Shown in pieces: positions 45,813 to 54,122 of a stretch of DNA of 64,000 bases (positions within the stretch are counted from its first letter, which is position 1; every line of letters starts with the position of its first letter). This DNA is from Oscillatoriales cyanobacterium. Its GTDB lineage: Bacteria; Cyanobacteriota; Cyanobacteriia; Cyanobacteriales; Laspinemataceae. The notes under the pieces are model-generated. The model was given only the letters and a program-made list of their open reading frames with translations. It searched no databases and had not been told where the DNA came from. The DNA is taken from contig JAABRM010000028.1 of the NCBI GenBank assembly GCA_011390955.1, positions 1 to 64,000 of the forward strand, written 5' to 3'. A program made the position numbers and the translations under genes.

Positions 45813-47252
45813 TTAACCCACCGATCCTTCTAACTTCAGACTTAAGAGGCGATCGGCTTCTACGGCAAATTCCATCGGCAATTGATTAAACACATCTTTG
45901 CAGAAACCGCTAATCATCATGCTGACAGCATCCTCAGCGGAAATACCCCGCTGGGCTAAGTAGAAAAGTTGGTCTTCACCAATCTTAGAAGTAGAAGCTT
46001 CATGTTCTACTCTTGCCCCCGGATTTTGCACTTGAATATAGGGGAAAGTATTCGCTTGAGCATTATCCCCAATCAGCATTGAATCACACTGAGAGTAATT
46101 CCGCGCCCCTTCTGCCCCCGGCCCAATTTTCACCAAACCGCGATAGCTATTTTTGGATTTACCCGCCGAAATACCTTTAGAAATAATGGTGCTGCGAGTG
46201 TTTTTGCCGATATGTACCATTTTGGTGCCGGTGTCTGCTTGTTGACGGTTATTCGTCAGGGCCACAGAGTAGAATTCGCCGACGGAATTATCGCCCACGA
46301 GCACGCAACTGGGATATTTCCAAGTAATTGCCGAACCTGTTTCGACTTGAGTCCAAGAAATTTTAGAGTTTACCCCTTGGCAGAGTCCGCGTTTGGTGAC
46401 GAAATTATAAATCCCGCCTTTGCCGTTTTCATCTCCGGCATACCAGTTTTGCACCGTGGAATATTTAATGTCTGCATTGTCCAGGGCGACCAATTCCACT
46501 ACGGCAGCGTGGAGTTGGTTGGTGTCGAACATGGGGGCGGTGCAACCTTCTAAGTAGGAAACTTGGCTGCCTTCATCGGCAACAATTAAGGTGCGCTCAA
46601 ACTGCCCTGAATCACCATTATTAATTCTGAAGTAGGTGGACAATTCCATCGGGCATTTGACCCCTTTGGGAATGTACACAAAAGACCCGTCGCTGAATAC
46701 GGCGGAGTTGAGGGCGGCGTAGAAGTTGTCACTTACGGGGACGACGCTACCGAGATATTTTTCGATCAGTTCGGGGTATTCGTGGACGGCTTCAGAAATT
46801 GAGCAGAAGATCACCCCTTCTTGGGCGAGTTTTTCCCGAAAGGTGGTGGCAATGGAAACACTGTCAAATACGGCATCGACGGCCACGTTGCTGAGGCGTT
46901 TCTGCTCGGAAAGGGGGATGCCCAGTTTTTCAAAGGTTTCTAGTAAAGCTGGATCTACGTCATTTAAGCTGTTGAGCTTTTCTTTTTTCTGTTTGGGGGC
47001 AGAGTAGTAAATAATGTCTTGATATTTGATCGGCGGATAGCTGACATGAGCCCAGGCTGGTTCCTGCATGGTCAGCCATTTCCGGTAAGCTTTGAGGCGA
47101 AATTCCAGCATGAACTCCGGCTCATTTTTTTTGGCGGAGATCAGACGAACTACGTCTTCACTTATTCCGGGAGGCAAAGTGTCAGATTCGATGTTGGTCA
47201 CGAACCCATATTTGTAGGGTTGGTTGACTAGGGTTTTTACTGAGGCGCTCAT
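45813..47252 (-). CDS. sufB: Fe-S cluster assembly protein SufB
   Basis: The 479-residue scaffold protein is typical Suf[40 protein letters not shown], the core Cys in [20 protein letters not shown], and the beta-helix with [20 protein letters not shown]. The C-terminal cluster-assembly His and interface region ([20 protein letters not shown]) is intact. It is the first suf structural gene, 136 bp downstream of ftrC. Confidence 0.97.
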
Positions 47253-47388
47253 GGTGTGTGTTCTCTTTGTCTAGAAGGTGGTAGATCGGCTTTATCAGCT
47301 TAAGATTACTGCTTAATTGGGTATTTATGATGACCAATGGCGGATGATGGTGAAATCACCAAGCCATGACGATCGATCTAAGGTGATT

Positions 47389-47751
47389 TTAAGCTGGATT
47401 GGTGGTGGTACGAATTTGCTCAAAGGAAATTTGTTGTCGATCCCCGGCAAAATCGTTGTCGGGAGTTAAAAACAACATACAGTGACATTCTTTCCGTTCC
47501 CTCATGGGGACGCAAGGGCAGTTCCAGTAAGCGGCTTTCGCTTCCGCTGCTTTGTCTTCGTAATGGCGACAAGGACATAGGGGCGAACCTAGGTCTTCTT
47601 TGTGTTTGGCCAAGCCTTCGATGACTACAGCGGTGACGCCGAGATCGGCACAGAAGTATGTGCCGGTGCGTTTGGCGTATTGTTCGGCAAATTGCCGCAT
47701 GGCTTCTAGGTTTTTGTCTGTAGCTGGTAAATTTTGTGTAGTTTGGTTCAT
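47389..47751 (-). CDS. ftrC: Ferredoxin:thioredoxin reductase, catalytic chain
   Basis: The 120-residue protein (start ATG 47751, MNQTTQNLPATDKNLEAMRQ) has the complete Cys set of FTR catalytic chains: Cys59, Cys78, Cys80 and Cys89 would hold the [4Fe-4S] cluster, and Cys61 and Cys91 form the redox disulfide (LCPCRHYED, WNCPCVPMRERKECHC). FTR passes electrons from ferredoxin to thioredoxin. It lies between sufR and sufB, so it is probably under SufR control here. The reading frame upstream of 47751 crosses the regulatory region and is not coding. Confidence 0.95.
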   Translation of the reverse strand: MNQTTQNLPATDKNLEAMRQFAEQYAKRTGTYFCADLGVTAVVIEGLAKHKEDLGSPLCPCRHYEDKAAEAKAAYWNCPCVPMRERKECHCMLFLTPDNDFAGDRQQISFEQIRTTTNPA

Positions 47752-47835
47752 TCGCTGACTGGTATAAAGAGCTTTTTTGGTTGGCGGACGTTGTTGTCCA
47801 CCGTGGTTCATCTGTATATATATAATGAGATTAAA

Positions 47836-47849
47836 CAACAGCCTTGTTG
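47836..47849. promoter_or_regulatory. SufR operator 1 (CAAC-N6-GTTG)
   Basis: CAACAGCCTTGTTG matches the perfect inverted repeat known as the SufR site in cyanobacteria. It lies in the 198-bp divergent region between ftrC and sufR. Confidence 0.85.
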
Positions 47850-47876
47850 CTTAACTTTTATTCTAGGGTACTTTAG

Positions 47877-47890
47877 CAACATTACTGTTG
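47877..47890. promoter_or_regulatory. SufR operator 2 (CAAC-N6-GTTG)
   Basis: CAACATTACTGTTG is the second match to the same motif, 41 bp centre to centre from the first. Two sites in the shared promoter region fit repression of both the suf side and sufR itself. Confidence 0.85.
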
Positions 47891-47949
47891 TCAAAGTTCC
47901 CGCGAGATTTTTTTATTGGACATTTTGGTCAGCGAGAACAGGTAAGAGG

Positions 47950-48609
47950 ATGACACCCAGCCAGCAGCAATCCACCAAAGACGATATCCTGCAATTTTTA
48001 AGAAAGCAGGGTCAAGCAACGGCGCAAGATTTGGCAGAACAGTTAAATCTTAGTCCCCAAGCGATTCGACGCCATTTGAAGGATTTAGAGGCGAATCACT
48101 TGATTTCCCATGAGTTGATTCAGGAGCGAATGGGGCGCCCGCAGTATCTTTACCAGTTGACCGAGAAAGGACGCGATCGCTTTCCCCATCGTTATGATGA
48201 TTTTGCGGTTTCCCTGCTGGATGTTTTGGCGGAAACCGTGGGGCCCGAACAGGTGAACTTGATTTTGCAGAAGCAGTGGGAACGCAAAGCGATTGATTAT
48301 CGCGATCGCTTGGGTCAAGGCCCTTTAGAAAAGCGGGTGGCAGCTTTGGTAGAACTGCGTAAAATTGAGGGCTATATGGCGGAGTGGCATCCGGTCGAAC
48401 AGAATGGCACCAGCAAGGGCGATCGCTTTCTGATTACGGAACATAATTGCGCGATTTCCAATGTAGCCGCTTCTTTCCCTAGGGTTTGCGATCATGAATT
48501 AGAAATGTTTGCCAGTGTTTTGCCAGACTGCACGGTAGAACGGACTTTTTGGATGATTAATGGTGAGCATCGCTGTGGCTATTTAGTTCAGTCTCGCGAG
48601 TTGGATTAA
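47950..48609 (+). CDS. sufR: SufR, Fe-S-sensing repressor of the suf operon
   Basis: The 219-residue protein (ATG 47950) has a DeoR-type winged helix at residues 8-75 (ATAQDLAEQLNLSPQAIRRH) and four C-terminal Cys that ligate a [4Fe-4S] cluster: Cys167 (EHNCAISN), Cys180 (RVCDHELEMF), Cys194 (LPDCTVERTFW) and Cys209 (EHRCGY). With cluster bound it represses sufBCDS and itself; under Fe limitation or oxidative stress repression is lifted. It diverges from ftrC-sufB. The upstream in-frame extension runs through the operators and is not used. Confidence 0.96.
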   Translation: MTPSQQQSTKDDILQFLRKQGQATAQDLAEQLNLSPQAIRRHLKDLEANHLISHELIQERMGRPQYLYQLTEKGRDRFPHRYDDFAVSLLDVLAETVGPEQVNLILQKQWERKAIDYRDRLGQGPLEKRVAALVELRKIEGYMAEWHPVEQNGTSKGDRFLITEHNCAISNVAASFPRVCDHELEMFASVLPDCTVERTFWMINGEHRCGYLVQSRELD

Positions 48610-48739: not shown

Positions 48740-48997
48740 ATGATACCCGAATCACAATCTAGCCCACAATTTTTAACTCCGGAAGAGTCTAGCGCGGTGG
48801 ATGGGGCTTTGCTGGCATCCCATGAGAAGTTTTTAACCCGGTTGACGATTTCTTCTTTGAAGTTGCTGAAACATATTGCCCAAGATACTGGGGTGGCGAT
48901 GGAGGATTTGACCCCCCAGCAGGTGATTGCTTGGTTTGAACAAGATGGTAAGATTCGCCGGGAACAAGGGGTTGAGGCGGCGTTTTTGAAGTGGTAA
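48740..48997 (+). CDS. Conserved small cyanobacterial protein of unknown function
   Basis: The 85-residue protein is soluble and helical: LTPEESSAVDGALLASHEKF, LTRLTISSLKLLKHIAQDTG, LTPQQVIAWFEQDGKIRREQ, ending GVEAAFLKW. No known domain is recognised. It follows sufR on the same strand, 130 bp away; whether it is co-transcribed is unknown. A solo GGATTCCCGC palindrome lies 19 bases after its stop. Confidence 0.72.
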   Translation: MIPESQSSPQFLTPEESSAVDGALLASHEKFLTRLTISSLKLLKHIAQDTGVAMEDLTPQQVIAWFEQDGKIRREQGVEAAFLKW

Positions 48998-49041: not shown

Positions 49042-49244
49042 ATCAGCGCTTTAGGGGATTATAGTACGGGCGATTCGCTGTCATTTATATTAACTAATCG
49101 ATATCAGTAGGAATTATTGCTGATTAGCCCCAGAAATCCTCTCAGTCAAAGGGATTTAATATTTAAGATTTACTTAATTATTTACTTAACTTAATAATTA
49201 GATGAGTCACTACTAGCAAAACAGTTAACTTTGGTGTCAAAGTC

Positions 49245-49272
49245 TTGTAATTTTATGCCAAAGTGCTTAAAG
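49245..49272 (+). promoter_or_regulatory. Promoter of RNA gene copy 1
   Basis: TTGTAA (-35 like), 16-bp spacer, TTAAAG (-10 like) preceded by GTGC. The pattern GTGCT, an A/T-rich stretch, then TTGAAGC is shared with copies 2 and 3, and the RNA would start within 7-9 bases. Confidence 0.6.
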
Positions 49273-49280
49273 TAAAAATT

Positions 49281-49533
49281 GAAGCAAGTAAAGCTTCCCT
49301 GGCAGATACATCAGCGCCAAGTTACAAGTAGTTTCGTCAAAGAGGTACAACGACGCTGTTTAAACTATCGTCTGTCTCGTCAACTCCAAACAGCACCCAA
49401 CTTGAAGTCTCAAACTTCCTATTTTTGTGAACTGGGAGCACCGTGCTTGAGAATACTCAAGATTCGCCTCCAGATATGCTCAAAAAATGGTAGGAATTCA
49501 CTGAGTGAGTAAAGGCTGGGTGCTGTTTTTGTT
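49281..49533 (+). ncRNA. Structured RNA, tandem family copy 1
   Basis: This ~253-nt unit starts GAAGC and ends in GCTGGGTGCTGTTTTTG. Helices conserved with the other copies are: GAAGC/GCTTC at the 5' end; GGCAGA (49311) with TCTGTC; CAGCG with CGCTG inside it; a small hairpin GAAGT/ACTTC; and a long-range stem AAACAGCACCCA with TGGGTGCTGTTT that ends in a T-run and acts as terminator. Segments such as CTGTCTCGT and ACTTCCT are invariant or nearly so. A 77-codon ORF crosses it, but its frame is not kept in copies 2 and 3, so the gene product is RNA. Confidence 0.82.
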
Positions 49534-49622
49534 TGGGATTTTTTGATGGATTCAAGGTTGCGGAAATTAATTAGTCCCTCAAAAGATAATTTCGGCAAAA
49601 TGTAAAGTTTAGTTGCAATTTC

Positions 49623-49650
49623 TTGCCATTCAAAAAAAAGGTGCTACATT
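49623..49650 (+). promoter_or_regulatory. Promoter of RNA gene copy 2
   Basis: TTGCCA, 16-bp spacer, TACATT preceded by GGTGC. The upstream stretch GTAAAGTTTAGTTGCAATT is almost the same in copy 3. Confidence 0.65.
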
Positions 49651-49657
49651 ATAAATT

Positions 49658-49906
49658 GAAGCTATGAAGTAAGCTTCCCTGACAGATACTTCAGCGCGAT
49701 GTCCATGTTAGTTGAGAGGTAAACCACGCTGTTTCACTACAAATCTGTCTCGTCCACCGAAAACAAAACCCAGCATCTGGTCTGATGCTTCCTAGATTGG
49801 TAACGCGGAAATTATGCAGAGAAAACTGGTAGGTATCTGTATATCCGCTGTAGCTCCAACGGAAAAGGAAGTGAGGACATCTAAGGATGCTGGGTTTTGT
49901 TTTTTG
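49658..49906 (+). ncRNA. Structured RNA, tandem family copy 2
   Basis: This ~249-nt unit shares the plan of copy 1, with compensatory changes. GACAGAT pairs perfectly with ATCTGTC (copies 1 and 3 have G-U here). The terminator stem is AACAAAACCCAGC with GCTGGGTTTTGTT, so both sides changed together relative to AACAGCACCCA/TGGGTGCTGTT. The local hairpin is GCATC/GATGC rather than GAAGT/ACTTC. It is followed by a long T-rich tract. The middle third (49790-49880) has diverged most. No ORF is conserved. Confidence 0.82.
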
Positions 49907-50107
49907 TTGGTTGTTGTTTGTTGTTTGTTGATTGTTGATTGTTGATTGTTGATTGTTGGTTGTTGATTGTTGATTGTTGATTGTTGATTGTTGGTTGTTG
50001 GGTTGTAATTGATAATTGATAATTGATAATTGATAATTGATAATTGATCATGGTATTTAATTGTCAATTGTCAATTATCAATTATTAATTGTTTTCCCCC
50101 ACACCCC
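49907..50107. repeat. Heptamer arrays TTGATTG, ATTGATA and inverse
   Basis: TTGTTTGTTGATTGTTGATT-type units run to 50000, then about six ATTGATA units (50007-50048) and the inverse CAATTAT units (50058-50092), ending with CCCACACCCC. It separates RNA copies 2 and 3. Confidence 0.9.
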
Positions 50108-50176
50108 TTTCCCTTAACTAATAACTCATAAATTAAAGTGTTCACTCATTAGAGTGTAAAGTTTACTTGCAATTGC

Positions 50177-50204
50177 TGGTAATTTATCAAAAAAGTGCTA
50201 GATT
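50177..50204 (+). promoter_or_regulatory. Promoter of RNA gene copy 3
   Basis: TGGTAA (weak -35), 16-bp spacer, TAGATT preceded by AGTGC; GTAAAGTTTACTTGCAATT lies upstream as in copy 2. Confidence 0.65.
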
Positions 50205-50211
50205 AAATATT

Positions 50212-50468
50212 GAAGCTAATTGATGAGCTTCCCTGGCAGATAGCACAGCGCGATGTCCATGTTTGTAATAGAAAAGAGGTAAAACACGCTGTTTAATTTT
50301 TCATCTGTCTCGTTAACCAAAAACAGTACCCAACTTGAAGTCTGATACTTCCTCCTCTAGGAAAAAGGGAGCCCTGCAAATTAGCCCGAAGGGGCAAAAG
50401 CAACTCCAGATAATATCCATTAAAAAGAGGCAGTCACTCAGCGAGTAAAGGCTGGGTGCTGTTTTTTT
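50212..50468 (+). ncRNA. Structured RNA, tandem family copy 3
   Basis: This ~257-nt unit has GAAGC/GCTTC, GGCAGAT/ATCTGTC, CAGCG/CGCTG and the hairpin GAAGT/ACTTC. The closing stem is ACAGTACCCA/TGGGTGCTGT with a T-G wobble where copy 1 has C-G. It ends in T7. The 5' third resembles copy 2 (CGCGATGTCCATGTT) while the 3' end resembles copy 1 (ACTCAG/GAGTAAAGGCTGGGTGC), as if segments had been exchanged. It contains an extra G/C-rich stretch GCCCGAAGGGGC (50381-50396). Confidence 0.82.
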
Positions 50469-50901
50469 GTGTGTTAAAGCAAAAGTAATTCATAGACCGG
50501 TTCAAATACTAAACGCTGTGGATGCATTAGATCGAGAGCAAATTGTCCGGCGCGATTCCGCTTCATCGGCTCCTGGAGTCAAAGACCCATGATAATTAGG
50601 CGATTTACTGGCTCAAAATTGAATATTTTGTGAAAAGCTGCTCCTAACTAATCATCAGATTGATAGGATAGTAATTAGCTCAGAGTCATGGCAAAAATGC
50701 GATCGCCATAGCATATCGGCTAAAAGCTGAAAAAAATTAGGTATAATTACGGAGAAAAATTAACTATGAATTTAGATCAATTTTAGATAAGTTGCGGACA
50801 CCCAAATAAGCAACAATAAATTTTAGATTTTGCTAATTTTATTCAACAAAAAATAGTCCTAAACAACCCCTAAAAAGTGTTAAAGTGATTCGGAGTTTTT
50901 C
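50469..50901. other. Intergenic region before the VapBC-like pair
   Basis: The 433 bases hold no ORF of note, one HIP1-related site (50700) and A/T-rich DNA. I see no tRNA and no fourth RNA copy. The promoter for the toxin-antitoxin pair should be near 50840-50890. Confidence 0.4.
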
Positions 50902-51171
50902 ATGCTGAGTATAGAATTGGACAAGGAAACGGAAGCGTATTTAGTGGAAATTTTGGGCAGGGAAAAAACTACTAGCGATGAGTTGATTAAACGCTTGGTG
51001 AAAGAACGTTGGTTGAGTTGGCAACCGCGCCAAACTATTGTCGAAAGATTGGGGGGACATCCCGAACATCTGTTAGAAGATGCGCCACCTGATTTATCAG
51101 AACGAGCAAATCGAAAAAAGGCGATCGCTAATTATTTGCAGAAAAAATATCCTCAATACGATCCGCAATGA
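50902..51171 (+). CDS. Antitoxin of a PIN-domain toxin pair
   Basis: The 89-residue protein begins MLSIELDKETEAYLVEILGR, a ribbon-helix-helix-like N-terminus (strand, then EKTTSDELIKRLVKERWLSW), followed by a flexible, charged C-terminus (LLEDAPPDLSERANRKKAIA). This fits DNA binding at its own promoter and toxin neutralisation. It overlaps the toxin gene by ATGA. Confidence 0.82.
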   Translation: MLSIELDKETEAYLVEILGREKTTSDELIKRLVKERWLSWQPRQTIVERLGGHPEHLLEDAPPDLSERANRKKAIANYLQKKYPQYDPQ

Positions 51172-51596
51172 CTTATCATCCCGTAATTATTGTCGATAGT
51201 GGAATTCTAGTAGCTTACTACAGTGTAAAAGATCGCTACCATCAACAGGTGCGAGTTTTCTTTGAGAGATGTACCAGTAACCTAGTAACTACCACTGCTT
51301 GCGTTACTGAAGTGGTATGGCTTTTAAGTCCTAATTGGCGAATACAAAATCAGTTTTTACAGGGAGTTGCCAGGGGAGTTTTTGAACCTATTCCACTGAT
51401 TCCTGAAGATTTTTCCCGTATGGCTGAACTGAATGAACAGTATGCAGATTTACCGGGAGATTTTGCAGATTTGTCTCTGATTGCTATTTCTGAACGGGTG
51501 AATATTCCGGCTATTGCTACTTTGGATAGTGATTTCGATGTTTATCGACGTTATCGAAAGCAAGCTTTTGAGCGGGTGTTTTTACCTGAAGACTGA
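51168..51596 (+). CDS. PIN-domain toxin (VapC-like)
   Basis: The 142-residue protein carries the PIN acids: Asp10 in VIIVDSGILVAYYS, Glu48 in ACVTEVVWLLS, Asp98/Asp101 in GDFADLSLIAI and Asp120/122 in ATLDSDFDVYRRY. It should be a Mg2+-dependent ribonuclease. All catalytic positions look intact. Confidence 0.87.
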   Translation: MTYHPVIIVDSGILVAYYSVKDRYHQQVRVFFERCTSNLVTTTACVTEVVWLLSPNWRIQNQFLQGVARGVFEPIPLIPEDFSRMAELNEQYADLPGDFADLSLIAISERVNIPAIATLDSDFDVYRRYRKQAFERVFLPED

Positions 51597-51971: not shown

Positions 51972-54122
51972 ATGCCTTCTCAAGACTTTGCCAAAACACA
52001 TACTGACCTTTACACTAAGGCGACAAAACTTTTGCAGTATTTGCGAGAGATTAGAGCAAGTCGTTGGCTCGAAGGTGATGCCGCCAGTGAGTTAAGGAAA
52101 GTTGAGACAGATATCAGTCAAGCTTTAGCTGATTTACAGGCTCAAAAGTATCAAGCAGCAGCAATTTCGGTTCAGCGTGTAGGTAAAAGTACCTTTCTAA
52201 ATGCTGTTATTGGCGAGGATATACTGGCAACTGACACAGAATCTTGTACTGTCTGCCGTACCGATATCCGACACATTCCAGTCGGACAAATTCCTCGACT
52301 TTTGGAGTATCGGCAGGGGCAACAGCAACCAATTGTCATTGCACAAGGGGATGCCCAGAGAATTCGACAGAAGTTTTTAGAATATACCCGCGAGATTCGA
52401 CAAAAAAACAACCCCTATCAAACTCTTCGCTTTGAACTAGAACATCCTATCGAAGTTGCTAGTACCATTCCCTTTCTGGCTGGTTTTACTTTAGTTGACA
52501 CGCCTGGTTCTAACGAGTGGAAGTCTTCAAACTTTGACACAACTCCACTCAAGCAAGCTTCTCTGGAAGCATTACACAACAGTGATGTAATTTTGTTTAT
52601 CTTAGATTACAACAATTACAAAACGAATGAAGTAGCTGAATTGTTCAGGGAACTAGGAAAAACCCGTCAAGATTTCTTATTAAAAAGCTGGCATAAGGTT
52701 TTCTTTATTCTGAATAAGGTGGATATGAAAGAGGAGCATTCTCGTAAAATCGAGGATGCGATCGTGGACTTGAAACAAACATTGATGAATGATTTTCGCT
52801 TTCCTGAGCCAATTATTTATCCTGCTAGTGCTAAACAAGGACTGCTGGCTAAACTCATTTTAAAAGGGATAGCGACTGAAAGTCATCATAAAGAATTTAG
52901 AAAAATTATTGGTCAGACTTACAGTAGAGTTGATGCCTACGGTGGCTCTTACACACCGCCATTGTCAGAGATTGCGCCATCAGCTTTAATAGATAGTGGT
53001 ATTTCTAATCTTGAAGAAACGGCGATTAAAAGTATTCTTAAGAATTCTGGCTATAATCTTATTGTTAAAGTTTTATTAATTCTAGACATCAAGGTAGAAG
53101 ATACTCAAAAAATCCTGATAAACCAGTCTAATATAACAAAAATTTATATCCAGTCTCAGAAAGCCAAAATAACTGAATGGATGGAAAAGATAGAATTTAT
53201 TTCTAATCAATATAAACAGCTTCGGGATATTTTACAAAGCCATAAAGAGGCTTTATTTGATGCACTTAATCAGCAGATAGATAGTTTCTGTGCTTCAGCA
53301 AAATCAAGTATAGAGTCAGAAATTGAAAAAATGAAAAGAGAGAAAGGAGGTCGTTGGTACACATCATATTATAGCCCAGATTGGTATAGTTCTTATATTG
53401 CCCCACGAACACGAAATTCATCTAATCTTAACGACAGCAGAATCTTCCTGGAAGCAAGCTCATCTAGAGCAAAAATGGTAGAGATTGCACAAGAAGCTGA
53501 ATCGCTGATTTATAGTAGTTGCAATTCTGTTTATAAAAACCAAATTAGTTTTTTGCAAAAGCAGCTTGATTTAGAAGCGACAAACGTTAGAAAAAACTTA
53601 TTGGCTCTTTTGCCGATAAGAATTGAACAATTATCACAAATGTTCTCCCTATACATAGGCTCTAAAATAGAATTAAAGTTACAAGAGAAATATGATATGG
53701 AGATAGGTGATTTTCAATTAACAGGAATTGAAATTCCCATTAAAGAATACGACTATATTCAGGAAGGCTGTATTGGTGATGGTGAGTGGGTAGACTTTTA
53801 CTACATGGGACATGAAATGGATTTTAACAAAATCTTAAGTCAATTTAATAGTCAAATAAACCAGCATAGAGAGCAGATGAAGCAAATAATTTATGGTTCT
53901 CTAGAACAAAATTTTTTCCAATTTATTTGCGTTTTAGATAAAATTAATGAGTTTAAGAGCCTATTTCAAGTGAAGTTGAATAACTTGTGGAACGAAATTC
54001 AGCAGAAAGAAGCTGAAAATAAGCTAATTATTGAAAGTCTTGATTATCACAGGAGTAAACTTAATGATTATCGGAGAGAGTTAGCCGCTATTCGGGGTTG
54101 TATCGAAGCTTGGAAGCCATAG
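51972..54122 (+). CDS. Dynamin-like GTPase
   Basis: The 716-residue protein has a dynamin-type GTPase domain: P-loop region ISVQRVGKSTFLNAVIG (GKS at 71-73), G2-like Thr in TDTESCTVCRTD, G3 VDTPGSNE (176-179), G4 FFILNKVD (248-251) and a G5-like SAK near 282. In the P-loop the first Gly of GxxxxGKS is Ser66, an unusual change. The rest is helical coiled coil, interrupted by a Tyr/Ser-rich loop (RWYTSYYSPDWYSSYIAPRT, near 457). Bacterial dynamins fuse or stabilise membranes, and some protect against phage. It lies after toxin-antitoxin genes and a CHAT remnant. Its codon use is more A/T-rich than its neighbours, suggesting transfer. Confidence 0.87.
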   Translation: MPSQDFAKTHTDLYTKATKLLQYLREIRASRWLEGDAASELRKVETDISQALADLQAQKYQAAAISVQRVGKSTFLNAVIGEDILATDTESCTVCRTDIRHIPVGQIPRLLEYRQGQQQPIVIAQGDAQRIRQKFLEYTREIRQKNNPYQTLRFELEHPIEVASTIPFLAGFTLVDTPGSNEWKSSNFDTTPLKQASLEALHNSDVILFILDYNNYKTNEVAELFRELGKTRQDFLLKSWHKVFFILNKVDMKEEHSRKIEDAIVDLKQTLMNDFRFPEPIIYPASAKQGLLAKLILKGIATESHHKEFRKIIGQTYSRVDAYGGSYTPPLSEIAPSALIDSGISNLEETAIKSILKNSGYNLIVKVLLILDIKVEDTQKILINQSNITKIYIQSQKAKITEWMEKIEFISNQYKQLRDILQSHKEALFDALNQQIDSFCASAKSSIESEIEKMKREKGGRWYTSYYSPDWYSSYIAPRTRNSSNLNDSRIFLEASSSRAKMVEIAQEAESLIYSSCNSVYKNQISFLQKQLDLEATNVRKNLLALLPIRIEQLSQMFSLYIGSKIELKLQEKYDMEIGDFQLTGIEIPIKEYDYIQEGCIGDGEWVDFYYMGHEMDFNKILSQFNSQINQHREQMKQIIYGSLEQNFFQFICVLDKINEFKSLFQVKLNNLWNEIQQKEAENKLIIESLDYHRSKLNDYRRELAAIRGCIEAWKP

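Follow-up and report, generated by a model that had tools for sequence, protein, structure and literature searches.

Comparison of cyanobacterial genomes revealed a family of predicted RNA genes, ~260 nt in length, that share a two-domain architecture and a conserved promoter. Three members stand in tandem in the 64,000-nucleotide stretch of an Oscillatoriales cyanobacterium contig analyzed here (the window), where an earlier reading of these bases (the original prediction) had proposed an undescribed-looking structured RNA gene in three copies. As judged from this comparison, the family is a real, selected, and widespread structured RNA of cyanobacteria. It has been retained in 83 of the 144 cyanobacterial genera sampled, has its own conserved promoter, and has no match in Rfam 15. 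Standalone RNA genes as such are familiar, but neither this family nor its architecture is represented in the databases consulted. The best overall explanation, to which we assign a probability of about 50%, is a regulated, activator-driven, trans-acting RNA whose 5′ loop would dock on a conserved partner, perhaps the 16S rRNA end of the 30S subunit.

The three units, each ~250 to 260 bases long and on the + strand, carry the features listed in the original prediction, which can be seen directly in the sequence (Table 1). Each starts with TTGAAGC...GCTTC at its first base, downstream of a −35-like/−10-like pair at 16-base spacing, each contains the paired segments GRCAGAT/(A/G)TCTGTC and CAGCG/CGCTG, and each has a closing stem running into T; the T-G wobble claimed for the closing stem of copy 3 is present (T50327). 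A repeat search of the window recovered these repeat families as well as the closing stems of copies 1 and 2, the latter exactly. Single-sequence folding was unremarkable for copies 1 and 3 (z scores of −1.38 and −1.77) and gave −4.35 for copy 2. Chance as the source of the repeats is excluded because a wider family exists with the same fold. A terminator for each unit is well supported for the window copies; this part of the original prediction is weaker for the family, in which the 3′ U-tract is often interrupted (for example, GUUGUUGUUUU). By sequence, then, the units look like standalone genes, with their own promoter and terminator and no conserved open reading frame (ORF).

Table 1. Positions of the three RNA units and their elements in the window
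Feature	Position	Strand	Remarks
Copy 1 variant of conserved upstream promoter element (GTTAACTTTGGTGTCA)	49224..49239	+	
Copy 1 −10-like hexamer TTAAAG after TGC	49267..49272	+	−35-like TTGTAA
Copy 1 structured RNA gene (predicted)	49279..49535	+	Repeats; profile and covariance-model matches
Copy 1 P2 5′ arm GGCAGAT	49301..49307	+	Pairs with 49370-49376
Copy 1 Shine-Dalgarno-like loop motif AAGAGGTA	49340..49347	+	
Copy 1 P2 3′ arm GTCTGTC	49370..49376	+	Sequence; P2 pairing in family alignment
Copy 1 closing stem 5′ arm	49388..49399	+	3′ arm 49517-49528, then T-run; covarying helix in family
Copy 2 upstream promoter element GTAAAGTTTAGTTGCA	49602..49617	+	
Copy 2 −10-like hexamer TACATT after TGC	49645..49650	+	−35-like TTGCCA
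Copy 2 structured RNA gene (predicted)	49656..49906	+	Closing stem 49760-49777/49886-49903
Copy 2 Shine-Dalgarno-like loop motif AGAGGTA	49715..49721	+	
Copy 3 upstream promoter element GTAAAGTTTACTTGCA	50156..50171	+	
Copy 3 −10-like hexamer TAGATT after TGC	50199..50204	+	−35-like TGGTAA
Copy 3 structured RNA gene (predicted)	50210..50470	+	Closing stem 50321-50332/50453-50464 with T-G wobble
Copy 3 Shine-Dalgarno-like loop motif AAGAGGTA	50274..50281	+	

The view that three copies are retained was borne out by the array of a sister species (G002), in which each copy is conserved relative to its counterpart while three of the four spacers diverge. The RNA units are 97 to 99% identical between the two arrays, with 7/257, 3/251, and 7/261 mismatches for copies 1, 2, and 3, respectively (1.2 to 2.7%), and the promoters are 94 to 100% identical (4/63, 0/65, and 0/64). 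Divergence reaches 30% in the spacer preceding copy 1, 47% in the one separating copies 2 and 3, and 53% in the one following copy 3; the 55 bases that separate copies 1 and 2 are conserved, with one mismatch. The mismatch rate of the RNA units is comparable to that of the neighboring 85-amino-acid (aa) reading frame (6/258, or 2.3%, in an alignment that also has 25 inserted bases). Since the copies of the array are at least 0.7 substitutions per site apart on the copy tree, the array is old. Two further copies on another contig of the source genome (G000:C92:86852-87106 and 87202-87456) are 0.022 substitutions per site apart on the same tree. The spacer at 49905-50090, between copies 2 and 3, consists of low-complexity heptamer repeats, TTGATTG and then AATTGAT with an inverted counterpart, which are not conserved in the sister species.

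The family extends well beyond this genome. A BLASTN search with copy 3 found it in 34 of 59 genomes, the source genome included. A first profile search gave 114 matches, antisense and duplicate rows among them, from which 46 distinct copies were aligned; 27 were kept after removal of three poor rows and of sequences at least 87% alike, and a covariance model was built from these 27 relatives (alignment A2). The search with this model produced matches in 151 of 338 Cyanobacteriia genomes, representing 83 of 144 genera and again including the source, and the matches listed all span the whole model. By hand count, 63 of the 151 genomes have at least two matches. These copy numbers are lower bounds, as up to six candidates were scored per genome; three genomes reach six matches and so have at least six copies each. 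An exact-pattern scan of named genomes found at least 115 stretches, all with cyanobacterial titles, including Nostoc, Calothrix, Fischerella, Scytonema, Laspinema, Oscillatoria, Leptolyngbya, Acaryochloris, and Crocosphaera. A second search with laxer filters covered 24 genomes, of which 20 had no listed match in the first covariance search; 15 of these 20 gave nothing at E values up to 1, and five gave weak matches. A virus-borne element was rejected, there being no exact-pattern match in viral contigs and no BLASTN match in phages. Partial matches to the RNA occur in three Nostoc plasmid records; two of these (L246:4001-4151 and L247:4001-4098) lie where no gene is listed, in tables that list no RNA genes. 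For the analyses below, a larger set of 188 distinct copies was drawn from 279 matches (score of at least 80, near full length), of which 165 passed a 96% identity filter and were used for covariation.

The predicted fold has two domains. The 5′ domain consists of the P1 hairpin (GAAGC/GCUUC) followed by P2 and P3, nested around a purine-rich loop; P2 is GRCAGAU/AUCUGUC plus a pair that covaries from C-G to U-A, and P3 is ACAG/CUGU. The 3′ domain is a rod composed of the closing stem, a short helix (CUGA/UCAG), UUUCCUC/GAGGAAA, an internal loop, and GGAG/CUCC; it ends in a terminal hairpin of variable length, and its base closes into the 3′ end. The 5′ domain is more conserved in sequence, whereas the 3′ rod is conserved mainly in structure: of the 38 columns with at least 97% identity, 28 fall in the first 100 of 256.

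The comparative evidence argues that this predicted fold is real. First, in a model-guided alignment of 115 rows (A4; 111 distinct, including three low-scoring rows, two antisense), 93.2% of 5,338 cells form standard pairs, compared to 38.5 to 49.9% when the partners were slid by 1 to 3 columns and 86.4% in shuffles. Changes on both sides occur in 34 of the 49 pairs, with 381 double-change cells against a shuffled mean of 106, and the closing-stem covariation first noticed among the three window copies holds across this wide alignment. The fitting of A4 was guided by P2, P3, and the closing and second stems; the two terminal helices, which are outside the model, pair in 99.3% and 82.5% of cells. 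P2 is 98.6% paired and almost invariant, and it speaks neither for nor against the proposed pairing. The inner part of P1 is paired in 73.3% of A4 cells, which we attribute to misalignment, because P1 is 98 to 99% paired in a MAFFT alignment. Second, in a sequence-only alignment of the 165 copies, the top covarying pair, 150-193, is A-U in 89 copies, G-C in 73, and G-U in 3. Eight of the 12 best covarying pairs in this alignment belong to one nested structure, and 13 of the 49 structure pairs lie above the 99.9th percentile of other pairs, the tested structure having been drawn with these same sequences in view. Weighing against these results, only the top pair was significant over all pairs under a stringent null preserving both the tree and the rates of the sites, and only three, all within the structure, were significant under an R-scape-like null.

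No reading frame is shared, as had been proposed. This holds for frames opened by ATG, GTG, or TTG, none of which is conserved. The longest ORF has a median of 29 codons, and the commonest start column (94 of 188 copies) sits in the 5′ hairpin; among the 175 copies measured, the loop lengths of this hairpin include every residue modulo 3. A coding RNA was rejected on the lack of a common ATG, GTG, or TTG frame and on these loop lengths. In many copies, a CUG codon in the P3 arm comes after the GAGG/GGAG core of the loop; one-base gaps between this CUG and the P2 arm in some A2 copies argue against a CUG frame.

The RNA also matched no known family. No Rfam 15 family reached its gathering score in the window, and within the array region, no 6S, tmRNA, RNase P, or Yfr family appeared among the matches at E values up to 10. 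The nine subthreshold matches there include a best one (E = 0.05) in an AT-rich spacer repeat, rspL (E = 4.2) and Fibro-purF (E = 9.7), which touch units, and mir-16 (E = 9), which touches a promoter. Twenty relatives compared to Rfam gave nothing at E values up to 0.05. The absence of an Rfam family, the wide covariation, and the conservation of the copies between species together support the description as an undescribed-looking structured RNA gene. A Y RNA of a Ro60 RNP was rejected: no Ro60 (TROVE) match was found in the source genome, which is 95% complete, and Ro60 is present in 59 of 338 genomes.

In the literature, the family was likewise absent from what was searched. Six short stretches of the conserved core, looked for in the full texts accessible, retrieved only two unrelated papers, and the accessible portions of PMC3610870, PMC2662882, and PMC6202907 make no mention of such a family. 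Among the closest known systems are NsiR1 (PMC3610870) and Yfr2, which is also a cyanobacterial small RNA (sRNA) family with several copies per genome. Two of the Synechocystis Yfr2 copies have a start site in common with genes downstream of them, and this linkage is not conserved (PMC2662882). Yfr2a, however, is ~80 nt long and has a conserved loop other than that of the array RNA (PMC2662882). A transcript that deserves attention is the sRNA 2462444f of Nostoc sp. PCC 7120, which is 258 nt long, was represented by 151,091 reads, was verified by Northern blotting, and responds to nitrogen step-down with an induction that needs neither NtcA nor HetR (Brenes-Alvarez et al. 2016, PMC4734099). 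In that paper, it is assigned neither a name nor a function, and homologues are reported from 24 of 27 heterocystous genomes and, by BLASTN criteria, exclusively from such strains (PMC4734099). Measured from GAAGC through the last base of the 3′ arm, 16 Nostoc/Trichormus-type copies are 259 to 270 nt long, just above the 258 nt of 2462444f, whereas the array family is spread far wider than the heterocystous strains in which that sRNA was reported. By its size, 2462444f is a lead to a possible member of the family; its reported restriction to heterocystous strains agrees less well. Since a Nostoc 7120 transcript of similar size has been published, the RNA may have been seen before, unnamed.

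The promoter is the second conserved feature of the family. In 183 copies, GAAGC could be located and the sequence available upstream was long enough; with these anchored on GAAGC, an extended −10 (TGnTA) is present in 147. A 16-base element, GTAAAGTTTAGTTGCA, with variants such as GTAAACTTTGGTTTCA, scores above 10 bits in 127 of the 183 copies and starts at −58 to −55 in 126 of them. A degenerate pattern of this element had 11 exact sites in 9 of 17 genomes, 7 of them at promoters of the RNA, and no exact match in the other 8 genomes; the reversed control had no site at RNA promoters in the 17 genomes. We infer from this placement that the element is a dedicated activator site. The element GTAAAGTTTAGTTGCA also precedes another reading frame in two species of the genus, in what appears to be the corresponding position (G000:C5:96378 and G002:C1:4587814; loci L220 and L219, respectively), which is possibly a second regulon member.

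The third feature is a Shine-Dalgarno-like motif in the purine-rich loop. The 3′ arm of P2 was found in 183 of the 188 copies, and the stretch scanned in these began at base 35 and ran up to that arm, with a median length of 49 nt. GAGG or GGAG is present in 183 of the 183 scored copies, compared to a mean of 42.7 and a maximum of 57 in shuffles, which ignore the relatedness of the copies. The motif is mostly AAGAGGU; it is AAGGAG in 15 copies and AGGAGGU in a few, and the AAGGAG form requires 9 parsimony changes on the copy tree. In 147 of the 183 scored copies, no ATG, GTG, or TTG lies 3 to 13 nt downstream of the core. The two columns that switch between GAGG and GGAG covary with each other (score of 72.5; next column, 17.7), and an internal partner for the switch was rejected since they covary with no other column of the RNA. 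This points to a partner outside the RNA and suggests that the loop is under selection to pair with it. Special accessibility of the core was rejected as well; in predicted folds, its median unpaired probability is 0.50, compared to 0.59 for other windows of the same region. The 3′ end of 16S rRNA reads GGATCACCTCCTTT in four of five genomes searched and was not found in the source assembly; both forms of the motif can pair with its CCUCC. The anti-Shine-Dalgarno end of 16S rRNA is therefore the foremost candidate partner, albeit a tentative one; the motif pattern would be accounted for equally well by a protein with affinity for purine-rich loops.

The location of the RNA bears on whether it acts in cis or in trans. 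At 57 loci, a gene for a conserved 256-aa protein (for example, L076:3183-3950) follows the RNA on the same strand, no more than 4 kb downstream. Of the 164 copies out of 188 that could be classed by location, 55 are attached, with this gene beginning less than 150 nt after them on the same strand (one distance, −174, is negative, an artifact of the protein match), 11 are further from it within 1.5 kb, and 4 are at contig ends. The remaining class, with no match to the 256-aa protein in 1.5 kb, or at least 400 nt, downstream, comprises 94 copies. The arrangement raises the alternative that the RNA is a cis-acting leader or attenuator of the 256-aa gene, perhaps an orphan riboswitch, that was later freed and duplicated in some lineages. 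The attached copies fit this idea, and 20 of them stand 11 to 34 nt before the gene, leaving little room for a promoter in between, so that the two may be cotranscribed in lineages with close spacing; the RNA core is also conserved like an aptamer. A remnant search with filters off in 20 regions upstream of the 256-aa gene, in genomes not listed as RNA positive, gave one chance-level match and two plausible weak remnants at the same place (G066 and G343).

However, a leader would be expected at a constant position, and the detached copies outnumber the attached ones. The 256-aa gene is present in 205 of 338 genomes, usually as one match, and many of these genomes lack the RNA. Conversely, 14 genomes with the RNA, two of them with only weak RNA matches, have no match to the gene at an E value of 1e−15 among the matches listed. 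In the source genome, the gene is on a contig other than that of the array. A leaky terminator in attached copies was rejected because their U-tract is no different from that of detached copies (P = 0.09 and 0.39), and a pairing of GCUGUU with a closing-stem arm, a potential antiterminator, is not kept, the base facing C being A in at least 95 of 163 copies. The varying location and the 14 genomes argue for trans action, which we regard as probable; a cis-only role is unlikely on the same genomic comparison, and the leader scenario as a whole is rather improbable. In two Trichormus-type genomes, the RNA instead lies between two other genes, read as a short-chain dehydrogenase and a methyltransferase. 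In one Trichormus-type genome (L079:99-3088), it adjoins a flavodoxin gene, a photosystem II (PSII)-type (CP43-like)-PsaL fusion, and another PSII-type protein, a group that we read as an iron-stress type cluster. The 256-aa protein has no sequence match in Pfam, NCBIfam, PHROG, or PDB; its AlphaFold model (mean pLDDT of 70) has a Rossmann-like C-terminal half with weak fold matches to TIR, DNPH1, and PurE structures. With no sequence matches and weak fold matches only, it was set aside as a key to the RNA.

A trans-acting RNA could also be a base-pairing sRNA that regulates mRNAs through its conserved loop and linker, like most trans-encoded sRNAs. Its own promoter, conserved unpaired stretches, and multiple copies are in keeping with this, as is the Nostoc 7120 sRNA induced on nitrogen step-down (PMC4734099), which may be related to it, judging by size. 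On the other hand, the loop is itself Shine-Dalgarno-like and so is unsuited to masking ribosome binding sites, and conservation is strongest in the paired P2 and P3 strands, which is unusual for an sRNA acting through a seed only. We consider this account unlikely. A second 6S-like RNA, in which the central bubble of the 3′ rod would mimic an open promoter and bind RNA polymerase, is very improbable: 6S RNA, too, is structured, stands alone, is similar in size, and has a long rod with bulges, and the rod of the array RNA has a closing stem, a large internal loop, and a terminal stem, but the 6S model (RF00013) does not match the array even at E values up to 10 and matches elsewhere in the source genome (82.6 bits), so that a normal 6S RNA is already present as a separate gene with a different 5′ domain, and sequence conservation in the array family peaks in the 5′ domain rather than the rod.

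Under the favored reading of a regulated trans-acting RNA, the upstream 16-base element would recruit an activator, the 3′ rod would fold the molecule and end transcription, and the 5′ domain would dock on a conserved partner via its loop. The leading candidate for this partner would be the anti-Shine-Dalgarno end of 16S rRNA in the 30S subunit, which the loop would meet without the usual start codon. The docked RNA might then tune translation or park subunits under stress, and tandem copies could raise the dosage. The specific form of this idea, a Shine-Dalgarno mimic lacking the usual start codon that serves as a dedicated, promoter-controlled regulator of translation by docking on 30S, is doubtful as it stands. 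If it were true, cyanobacteria would possess a ribosome-directed regulatory RNA; to our knowledge, one of this sort is not known from other bacteria. Even if it were false, the conserved 100-nt core would still call for a partner, which is directly testable.

Several genes surround the array. Upstream, 45813-48609 contains a SufB-type gene (SUFBD_core) and a winged-helix regulator, which we take to be SufR; relatives of both are found near the array in L181 (Oscillatoriaceae M33_DOE_052) and L083 (G002). The 85-aa reading frame just upstream of copy 1 (48740-48997) also has relatives at L083 and L181, and it had no match in Pfam or NCBIfam. Downstream of copy 3, 50902-51596 encodes a PIN-domain protein (PF01850) preceded by a small ORF, the two resembling a VapBC toxin-antitoxin pair; an 89-aa ORF downstream of copy 3 is not conserved at the same place in the sister species (55%). 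Further downstream, 51972-54122 encodes a 716-aa dynamin-family GTPase (PF00350).
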